Under the pieces are notes generated by a model. That model saw only the letters and a program-made list of their open reading frames with translations. It searched no databases and was not told where the DNA came from. Below, piece by piece: positions 16,405 to 19,600 of a stretch of 23,780 bases of DNA (the first letter of the stretch is position 1; every line of letters begins with the position of its first letter). A program made the position numbers and the translations under genes. The DNA is from a virus: IMG/VR virus record IMGVR_UViG_3300028196_000092, positions 1-23,780 of that record. One strand, written 5' to 3'.

Positions 16405-16685
16405 ATGTAAAACTGCTACGCATCAGCACTGGCGAAGAAATCGTTGCTGAGATTGTTGAAGAGAATGATGAGACCATCACTGTAAGGAATGGACTGGTCT
16501 GTGTCCCTCAGGCACAGAGTGTTGGATTTATCCCTTGGGCAACTGTGGTTGATAAGCAAGAACCTGAGATTACAGTAGGACGACAGTTCATTGTTTATAT
16601 CGCAGCAGTTGACCCTACTGTAAAAAACAAGTATAGTGAAATGTTCGGTGGTATCACCACTCCTGAAAAGAAACTCATTCTGTGA
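16401..16685 (+). CDS. Sm-like (LSM-fold) protein, copy 2
   Basis: 94 residues, the most compact of the four Sm-like genes. MNVKLLRISTGEEIVAEIVE gives the strand, S/TGEE turn and second strand of the Sm1 part. NDETITVRNGLVCVPQ and FIPWATVV follow, and REF-like QFIVYIAAVDP with NKYSEMF closes the fold. It is the copy closest to the marine Sm-like protein of presumed cyanophage origin whose crystal structure I recall. The function is unknown; ring formation and RNA or single-stranded DNA binding are inferred from the fold. It is coupled on both sides, to a 60-residue gene (ATGA) and to the Dam methyltransferase (TGATG). Confidence 0.85.
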   Translation: MNVKLLRISTGEEIVAEIVEENDETITVRNGLVCVPQAQSVGFIPWATVVDKQEPEITVGRQFIVYIAAVDPTVKNKYSEMFGGITTPEKKLIL

Positions 16686-17527
16686 TGAAGTCTTATAAAA
16701 CCCCTTTAAGATATCCAGGCGGTAAGTCTCGTGCTTGCCAAAAGATGGATGTGTATTTCCCTGACCTGAGGGAGTATAAAGAATATCATGAACCATTTCT
16801 TGGTGGAGGCAGTGTTGCCATTCACGTCACTAAGAAGTATCCTCACTTGGATATCTGGGTAAATGACTTGTATAAACCTCTATATAACTTCTGGAGGGTC
16901 CTACAGGATTCTGGTGCTGATCTTGCTGAGAGAATTGGTGAACTGAAGTCACAGCACCCTGAACCTGGATCTGCTAAAGATCTATTTTTGAAGTCAAAGG
17001 AGACTGTAAATGACTATAATGAATCGGATTTATCTCGCGCAGCTGCTTTTTATATCGTTAATAAGTGTAGTTTTAGTGGTCTCACTGAATCATCATCCTT
17101 CAGCAAACAAGCAAGTGTCTCCAACTTCTCAATGCGAGGCATCGAAAAACTTCCAGGGTATTCCCAATTAATCAAAGATTGGAAAATTACTAATCTCAGT
17201 TATGAACAACTCCTTACTGATAACAAAGAGTGCTTCACCTACCTTGATCCCCCCTACGACATACGAGATAATCTATATGGAAGGAAGGGGAGTATGCATA
17301 ACGGATTCAACCACGACGATTTTGCTGCCGATTGTGATCGGTCTATTGCTCCTCAACTCATATCTTATAATTCGTCTCAACTGGTCAAAGAACGTTTCCA
17401 AGGGTGGGAAGTAGGTGAGTTTGACCTTACATACACAATGAGATCTGTAGGCGAGTATATGCGCGAGCAAAAAGAACGAAAAGAACTTTTACTTTTTAAC
17501 TATGACAAACCCCAATCAGTTATATGA
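16685..17527 (+). CDS. dam: Dam-type adenine-N6 DNA methyltransferase (D12 class)
   Basis: 280 residues from the ATG at 16685, which overlaps the upstream stop; a GTG at 16682 is also possible. LRYPGGKSRACQKM (8-21) and EPFLGGGSVAIHV (36-48, AdoMet loop, FxGxG-like) precede the catalytic DPPY (188-191), the order of the D12 alpha class. Such enzymes methylate adenine, commonly in GATC; site specificity cannot be read from the motifs. GATC sites are plentiful across this window, so it does not look purged. The likely role is protecting phage DNA from host restriction or marking it. It is unusual to find it within the clamp-loader cluster, between gp44 and gp62, which suggests insertion of an accessory gene. 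Confidence 0.9.
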   Translation: MKSYKTPLRYPGGKSRACQKMDVYFPDLREYKEYHEPFLGGGSVAIHVTKKYPHLDIWVNDLYKPLYNFWRVLQDSGADLAERIGELKSQHPEPGSAKDLFLKSKETVNDYNESDLSRAAAFYIVNKCSFSGLTESSSFSKQASVSNFSMRGIEKLPGYSQLIKDWKITNLSYEQLLTDNKECFTYLDPPYDIRDNLYGRKGSMHNGFNHDDFAADCDRSIAPQLISYNSSQLVKERFQGWEVGEFDLTYTMRSVGEYMREQKERKELLLFNYDKPQSVI

Positions 17528-18711: not shown

Positions 18712-19146
18712 ATGGTAAACATTCAGAAGTTTCATTCTGCTGATTTAAATTCTTTGGTAGACCGTATAAATAAGTATAGCATCGGTATGGATGATATATT
18801 TGATAGATTATCCCACGTCCATGAAACGCAGGGGAATTATCCTCCATACAACCTAGTTCAAATCAGCAATACGGAATCACGACTTGAACTAGCACTTGCT
18901 GGATTTAAACAAAAAGAATTAAATGTTTACACTCAAGACGGAAAACTATTTGTCGAAGGAACAAAAGAAGAACCAAAAGAAGAACCAACATACCACCACA
19001 GAGGAATGGCTCAGAGATCTTTCACCAGATCTTGGACACTCGGTGATGAAACGGAAGTTAGATCAGTTGCTTTTGAGAATGGGTTACTGACTGTTGAATT
19101 GAGTAAAGTAGTACCAGATCATCACCAAAGAAAGAATTGGTTTTAA
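18712..19146 (+). CDS. hsp20: Small heat shock protein Hsp20
   Basis: 144 residues. The alpha-crystallin domain runs from about residue 45 to 135: YNLVQISNTESRLELALAGF, ELNVYTQDGKLFVEGTKEE, RSFTRSWTLGD and AFENGLLTVELSKVVP, matching the usual strand order and the G-x-L-x-V-x(4)-P end. There is a helical N-terminal arm (DRINKYSIGMDDIFDRLS) and a short C-terminal tail (QRKNWF) without a clear I-x-I. Small heat shock proteins hold unfolding proteins for refolding; hsp20 is almost universal in cyanomyoviruses and may protect phage assembly or photosystem proteins. The gene has its own leader between a terminator and the start, with strong ribosome-binding site AAAGGAGA. Confidence 0.96.
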   Translation: MVNIQKFHSADLNSLVDRINKYSIGMDDIFDRLSHVHETQGNYPPYNLVQISNTESRLELALAGFKQKELNVYTQDGKLFVEGTKEEPKEEPTYHHRGMAQRSFTRSWTLGDETEVRSVAFENGLLTVELSKVVPDHHQRKNWF

Positions 19147-19171
19147 TATCCTGACTAATTTTTGCTACGGT

Positions 19172-19199
19172 TGATACAGAAGTGTATCACTATGATACA
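19172..19199 (+). repeat. Triple alternating heptamer (operator-like)
   Basis: TGATACA (19172-19178), TGTATCA (19183-19189) and TGATACA (19193-19199) alternate in orientation with spacers of 4 and 3 bases. Each neighbouring pair forms a perfect inverted repeat. The array lies just upstream of a TATAAT and of the microprotein cluster. It could be a regulator binding site, or RNA that switches between two hairpins. Confidence 0.75.
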
Positions 19200-19209
19200 C
19201 TATACTCTA

Positions 19210-19215
19210 TATAAT
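19210..19215 (+). promoter_or_regulatory. Promoter -10 TATAAT before the microproteins
   Basis: A perfect TATAAT lies 24 bases before the ATG at 19240. No good -35 is found at 16-18 bp; that place holds the heptamer repeats, which would fit activator dependence. Transcription would start near 19222, followed by AGGAGGT (19229-19235). Confidence 0.5.
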
Positions 19216-19239
19216 TATGTAATCGATTAGGAGGTATCA

Positions 19240-19323
19240 ATGAACTTCACCACCACTGCTTTAGCAGCTGGCGCTCTAATGACTATTTTTGTTGGAGTTC
19301 CCATTACTGCAATTGTTTCTTAG
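19240..19323 (+). CDS. 27-residue membrane microprotein
   Basis: The frame begins MNFTTTALAAGALMTIF and ends VGVPITAIVS, almost entirely hydrophobic: one membrane helix. The ribosome site AGGAGGT (19229-19235) is full consensus with 4 bases to the ATG, the best in the window, which is the main argument that this tiny frame is translated. I cannot assign it. The stretch with FVGVPITAI faintly recalls the first helix of PsbZ (VGVPVAYA), but that is too short to count. It starts a three-gene cluster of membrane microproteins; tiny single-helix subunits are typical of photosynthetic complexes, so a photosystem-related role is a guess. Confidence 0.62.
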   Translation: MNFTTTALAAGALMTIFVGVPITAIVS

Positions 19324-19326
19324 ACC

Positions 19327-19401
19327 ATGGAAATTCTAGTAATTATCGCAGTACTCTCAGCAACAACATTCGGTGCTTATAAAATGACTCCAATACAATG
19401 A
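19327..19401 (+). CDS. 24-residue membrane microprotein
   Basis: It reads MEILVIIAVLSATTFGAYKM followed by TPIQ: a single hydrophobic segment of about 16 residues and a short polar end. It begins three bases after the previous stop, without its own ribosome site, and its stop overlaps the next ATG (ATGA at 19398). It is plausible only as the middle member of a coupled cluster. Confidence 0.45.
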   Translation: MEILVIIAVLSATTFGAYKMTPIQ

Positions 19402-19523
19402 TAAATGATATTAAATCATCTGCTCTTGCATTTGTCTATGCTTGGGCAGTTATTCTCGTTCCACTTGTACTCGTATCGTCTATCGTTAGTTTAGCAAATC
19501 CACAGACACAAGAATCTATCTAA
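19398..19523 (+). CDS. 41-residue single-helix membrane protein
   Basis: A polar start MINDIKSSA leads into LAFVYAWAVILVPLVLVSSI, a clear membrane helix, then a polar end SLANPQTQESI. The layout (short polar N-terminus, one helix, short polar tail) is that of small subunits of membrane complexes. No family is recognised. The start overlaps the preceding stop (ATGA). A CTAAATA box overlaps its stop codon and a terminator follows. Confidence 0.6.
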   Translation: MINDIKSSALAFVYAWAVILVPLVLVSSIVSLANPQTQESI

Positions 19524-19526
19524 ATA
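19520..19526 (+). promoter_or_regulatory. CTAAATA box (late-promoter-like)
   Basis: An exact CTAAATA overlaps the stop codon of the third microprotein. Because a strong terminator begins 23 bases downstream, a transcript starting here would be only about 60 bases long. It is either a chance match or the start of a short terminated RNA. Confidence 0.3.
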
Positions 19527-19548
19527 AAGTATATCGTCGTCGCAGACG

Positions 19549-19590
19549 GAGGGGGAACTGGCAAAATCCAGTTGCAACCCCTCTTTTTTT
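19549..19590 (+). terminator. Long two-part terminator hairpin
   Basis: GAGGGG (19549-19554) pairs with CCCCTC (19578-19583), and inside it AACTGG (19556-19561) pairs with CCAGTT (19568-19573). Seven T follow (19584-19590). It closes the Hsp20/microprotein region. Confidence 0.92.
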
Positions 19591-19600
19591 ATGCTATACT
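19572..19600 (+). promoter_or_regulatory. Sigma70-type promoter for the polymerase unit
   Basis: TTGCAA (19572-19577, 4 of 6), a 17-bp spacer made of terminator stem and T-tract, then TATACT (19595-19600, 5 of 6) with TG plus one base before it (extended -10). Transcription would start near 19607, 16 bases before the ATG at 19623. It would drive the Sm-like genes, gene 43 and uvsX. Confidence 0.62.

Follow-up and report, generated by a model that had tools for sequence, protein, structure and literature searches.

Known cyanophage genes and single-helix proteins

Cyanophages carry auxiliary metabolic genes, such as psbA, hli, petE and ndhD, that are related to genes of their hosts and several of which are located at variable genome sites. 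The Hli (high-light-inducible) proteins have a single helix and a chlorophyll-binding motif of the ExxNxR type. We describe here a cyanophage cassette coding for three microproteins, A, B and C. A and B are host-related like the auxiliary genes mentioned above, but all three are microproteins of no known function, coupled in an operon and preceded by a palindromic leader of their own. With PetN, PsaM and PsbT (29-32 aa) they share the small size, the single helix and, by prediction, a place in cyanobacterial membranes; they differ from them in that a sequence match is absent in Pfam, NCBIfam and PDB.

The searches in Pfam and NCBIfam gave no family match for A, B, C or their host versions beyond sub-threshold noise, and PDB gave no relevant match up to an E value of 10. 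PetN, PsaM and PsbT, used as positive controls, scored strongly in the same libraries, and the known small-subunit families of the photosystems, cytochrome b6f and NDH were rejected, being unmatched despite these working controls. The best PHROG match of any peptide of the analyzed DNA (E 0.0086) was to a family of unknown function, and no ExxNxR-type motif was seen on reading through the distinct proteins of the three families. The type IV prepilin N-terminal domain (TIGR02532) was considered for B and discarded: only 1 of 12 members matched at E values up to 1 (17.5 bits, the cut-off being 16.3) and the other 11 were unmatched.

Three coupled genes downstream of hsp20

The window, i.e. the whole stretch of DNA that we analyzed (23,780 nucleotides of the IMG/VR record IMGVR_UViG_3300028196_000092), is part of the genome of a T4-like marine cyanophage. 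Locally, the order is hsp20 (18712..19146, + strand, identified by synteny and by phrog_432 with E 7e-56), leader, A, B, C, a terminator-like hairpin, a pair of small hypothetical genes and gp43, the DNA polymerase. Elsewhere in the window, a 281-aa ORF located 5' of hsp20 (16682-17527) looks by eye like a Dam-type DNA adenine methylase, and an 86-aa ORF 3' of the likely major capsid gene (2531-2791) has an Asn/Gly/Ser-rich low-complexity tail.

The three frames are real genes. A (27 aa, 19240..19323), B (24 aa, 19327..19401) and C (41 aa, 19398..19523), all on the + strand, were found exactly as a preliminary description of this DNA had given them, with 3 nt between A and B and an ATGA overlap at the B/C junction. 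The ribosome site AGGAGGT that it had placed before A (Shine-Dalgarno, 19229..19235, + strand) occurs nowhere else on that strand of the window, and 4 nt separate it from the ATG of A. It had also predicted one membrane helix for each protein, and a single hydrophobic stretch is indeed found in A, B and C, with Kyte-Doolittle 19-residue maxima of 2.20, 1.64 and 2.45, respectively. The AlphaFold2 model of C consists of a single helix at residues 2-33 (mean pLDDT 85). When the 476-nt intergenic DNA was Markov-shuffled, three chained TM-type ORFs starting with ATG appeared in 0 of 3,000 copies and two chained ones in 0.4% of them.

Each microprotein has a recognizable family pattern: M-N-[FLW]-T...G for A, which has no charged residue, MEILA...GA[FYW]x[LM]TPK for B and MIxD[IL]KSSAxAFVYAWAIILVP...P..QES for C. 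An alternative ORF in the +1 frame (19405-19494) is less hydrophobic (1.32), and in the diverged homologs of C (L114-L118) it shrinks to 18 codons.

Leader and terminator of the cassette

The palindrome TGTATCAnnnTGATACA and a -10 box form a conserved leader that marks the cassette, with the palindrome at the position expected for a -35 element. In the window it reads GTGTATCA-CTA-TGATACAC (19182..19200), a putative operator in the -35 region, preceded by an additional half-site TTGATACA (19171..19178, + strand) that was found in most leaders. The -10-like box TATAAT (19210..19215, + strand) is contained in the conserved TCTATATAATTATGTAA and is kept in diverged leaders; in the diverged loci the leader 5' of A has the common GTTGATACAnAAGTGTATCAnnnTGATACACT, then TCTATATAATTATGTAA or TCTAAATAATTTTGTAA. 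We infer that the box and the palindrome are the promoter leader dedicated to the cassette, and that the palindrome would be bound by a regulator.

Scanning IMG/VR by the exact palindrome alone gave at least 118 contigs. Among the matches listed, the palindrome was nearly confined to the cassette with its -10 box: 99 of 118 combined a -10-like box with an ORF for A, B or C immediately 3' of it, three had the box without a recognized ORF and 16 had neither. One of the three box-only contigs (L310) encodes a B-like ORF that the search pattern missed, and another (L288) looks like a deleted cassette in which the leader runs directly into the terminator.

At the other end, the cassette is bounded by a terminator-like hairpin (19549..19590, + strand) formed by GAGGGG..CCCCTC with an inner AACTGG/CCAGTT stem and a T run. 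More than 200 cyanophage records have a hairpin with this inner stem, conserved in its DNA sequence (copies at window 19519-19600, L041:1501-1583, L040:1501-1581 and L032:1930-2030), and it occurs both 3' of hsp20 and in the hli-psbA region. The hairpin varies too little for a covariation check to reveal compensatory changes. Rfam detected no family in the window, hairpin included, or at the host loci.

Conservation and distribution in phages

The preliminary description held that lack of conservation in related phages would speak against the cluster. We found the cassette conserved, its spacing included, in many contigs of cyanophages. B was matched in 57 IMG/VR loci and C in 28, and the distinct proteins collected were 28 for A (every one of 27 aa), 27 for B and 10 for C. 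In 60 of 79 cases A and B were 3 nt apart, and B and C had an offset of -4 (the ATGA overlap) in 30 of 30. For one A protein there were 11 distinct coding sequences, and for one B protein nine. The variation among close homologs was mainly synonymous, a sign of purifying selection, with pN/pS values in close clades of 0.27 for A and 0.15 for B; close clades were used because the values for whole families (0.39-0.58) are near saturation and uninformative.

Between hsp20 and the downstream genes the cassette may be present, partly present or absent, as indicated by the IMG/VR loci anchored at hsp20. Identical or nearly identical ABC cassettes were found in L001, L002 and L004-L007, diverged A and B in L003, L009, L013 and L014, and A alone in L024. 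In L008, L010-L012, L015-L022 and isolates such as S-SM2 and S-SKS1 the cassette was absent, and in its place was an empty stretch of about 100 nt. At this hsp20-gp43 site the operon comes and goes as a unit, with gains and losses between hsp20 and the terminator. Among isolated phages, A and B were found in S-B05, S-B43, RB11-B and RN05-S (all on Synechococcus MW02) and A in S-SCSM2R (on WH7803), always within stretches without annotated genes. Searches by tblastn with single short peptides gave no match in phage records; conserved blocks, synteny with hsp20 and profiles were used instead because tblastn cannot find diverged peptides of this length. In the literature searched, the coverage of which lies outside most subscription journals, we found no report of the cassette.

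Larger genes also occupy the site after the cassette (L013:3772-5001, L014, L043 and L100:9036-10586). In several contigs it holds a 409-aa ORF that resembles by eye a serine hydroxymethyltransferase, and in S-SCSM2R it holds ndhD.

Tiny TM proteins (24-69 aa) also form a second array in cyanophages, which in several cases includes B-family members and is followed by phrog_814 or phrog_1184 proteins (L088:3745-4215, L089:3914-4215, L090:1792-2113, L092:4001-4281, L101:2677-3210 and L102:2850-3216). In its vicinity are petE, zwf or gnd, as well as an endonuclease gene, and its smallest members are mostly unannotated. Where a phrog_814 protein comes after the B member, the ATGA overlap to the next gene is the same as in A-B-C. 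However, other partners replace A and C, and the array is near an endonuclease gene that is itself just 5' of the terminase in annotated phages.

Relatives of A and B in the host genomes

We searched the genomes of Cyanobiaceae for relatives of the three proteins. Profiles built from phage sequences only, applied to 201 genomes, retrieved B-type ORFs (E 1.5e-5, 3.1e-5 and 4e-4) and, weakly, A-type ORFs (E 0.002-0.007). With mixed profiles over 400 genomes, unannotated A-type ORFs of 27 aa were found in 29 at E < 1e-3, and an unannotated B-type ORF of 23 aa in five at about 1e-11. One example of host A is the 27-aa ORF MNFTVPTISIGILTYTLFHLCFSHIMH, with a GGAG site, and one of host B is the 23-aa ORF MEILAVIAIVGAAFGGAAALTKK. 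The host A genes have a conserved upstream region similar to CTARGCATTATTACTC...ATTATGTAG, and most host B genes are followed by a terminator-like hairpin. The pN/pS values in the hosts were 0.11-0.30 for A and 0.11 for B.

In the opposite direction, host-only HMMs were run against 9,114 phage ORFs, and the best 28 places listed were all members of the phage A or B family, with no unrelated hydrophobic ORF among them. The best scores were 5e-8 for the A family (0.0042 for A of the window) and 5e-9 for the B family (0.0016 for B of the window), although this test of homology is not fully independent because the phage profiles had first picked the host sequences. The comparison of phage and host by hhalign gave 95.5% and 97.7%, whereas an unrelated pair scored 0.3%. 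The exact pattern GA[FY]ALTPK retrieved no relative across GTDB; it would miss host B, which, unlike phage B, is without the proline of TPK.

Host and phage microproteins thus share the start motif, one TM helix, homology at the level of profiles and, in the case of A, the length. The host genes occur singly, with a different upstream region or a terminator, unlike the coupled phage copies. A and B were never found together in the sampled host genomes, and no photosynthesis gene was found as neighbor of either. Two host genomes (G163 and G176; L246:1501-1842 and L249) have a second 27-aa A paralog, MSFSITTIAAGTVIYMYFLALFGPVLR, convergent with the first and a few hundred bases apart. C had no host relative in 300 genomes (best E 0.04, judged to be noise). 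Recognizable host homologs, as expected of host-derived auxiliary genes, were found for A and B and, in the 300 genomes searched, not for C, and being relatives of host-encoded microproteins A and B look like host-derived accessory genes. Sequences this short (23-27 residues) contain little phylogenetic signal.

Possible role of the microproteins

Since A and B are related to equally tiny genes in host genomes of Synechococcus type, the virus probably adjusts a host membrane complex during infection. The reading that we prefer, with a probability of about 0.5, is that A-B-C is a regulated and mobile operon of host-type single-helix membrane microproteins that modulate such a complex. A regulator acting on the palindrome would switch the promoter in the course of infection, and translational coupling would keep the three peptides at similar levels, and they would insert into the thylakoid or the plasma membrane of the host. 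A and B could then replace their host counterparts or compete with them, and C might be a phage-specific partner that associates together with them with a membrane protein complex of the host, the activity or stability of which would be altered during phage replication. That A keeps a length of 27 aa in phages as well as in hosts is suggestive of a precise fit and not of a generic hydrophobic peptide.

Which complex could be involved is a question on which the preliminary description had already proposed photosynthesis. The relationship of A and B to host microproteins gives this proposal indirect support, while the part of it that appealed to known small subunits found no recognizable family, and photosynthesis stays as a possible field of action. 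A more specific version, in which the three peptides would bind a thylakoid complex (photosystem I or II, cytochrome b6f or NDH-1) and redirect the electron flow like other photosynthesis genes of phages, we regard as unlikely. Cyanophages carrying single-helix microproteins of host type would fit, as would ndhD at the same insertion site in S-SCSM2R and petE, zwf or gnd near the B relatives of other phages. However, the known small subunits were unmatched in searches that did detect PetN, PsaM and PsbT, and the host A and B genes have non-photosynthesis neighbors.

Hydrophobic single-helix peptides of phages frequently have a role in lysis timing or superinfection exclusion, and on this general ground A, B and C might act on the cytoplasmic membrane in one of these ways. 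The preliminary description had suggested lysis or the envelope as well, a suggestion that gained no positive support here: PADLOC defence families gave no match, and the best score against the lysis families of PHROGs was that of one B relative to a spanin family, at an E value of 0.12 that is not significant. With the cassette among replication genes, adjoining hsp20 and gp43, and with chromosomal host genes related to A and B, we consider such a function quite improbable.

A still poorer candidate is a toxin-like membrane peptide common to host and phage, of the kind found in type I toxin-antitoxin systems. It would agree with the 27 uncharged residues of A, with host A being alone in intergenic DNA and with the two convergent paralogs of two host genomes, but Rfam revealed no antisense RNA family in the window or at the host loci, the Shine-Dalgarno sites are strong, and an invariant length together with the coupling to B and C in phages is unusual among these toxins. 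Constant length and coupling favor instead a structural or accessory role. Finally, that the region is a non-coding conserved RNA or regulatory DNA open in three frames by chance, as the flanking conserved palindrome and terminator hairpin might suggest, is hardly credible given the synonymous-biased variation, the conserved spacing, the host homology of A and B seen by protein profiles and the lack of any match in Rfam.

Significance

The genes of the cassette have no annotation in the isolated phages that we checked, and no named family was matched by their host relatives. The existence of host relatives of exact length under purifying selection points to an uncharacterized family of membrane microproteins in the marine picocyanobacteria, and the fact that the phage copies have their own palindromic leader suggests that their function matters in infection. 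Named genes that can be tested are now at hand in S-B05, S-B43, RB11-B, RN05-S and S-SCSM2R. We propose, tentatively and with more doubt than confidence, that cyanophages carry coupled copies of host regulatory peptides of 23-27 aa under a phage operator dedicated to the cassette, taking over a membrane regulatory circuit of the host, and that these peptides are an undescribed class of microproteins. If true, microproteins shared in this way by phage and host would reveal a new membrane regulatory circuit of the host.
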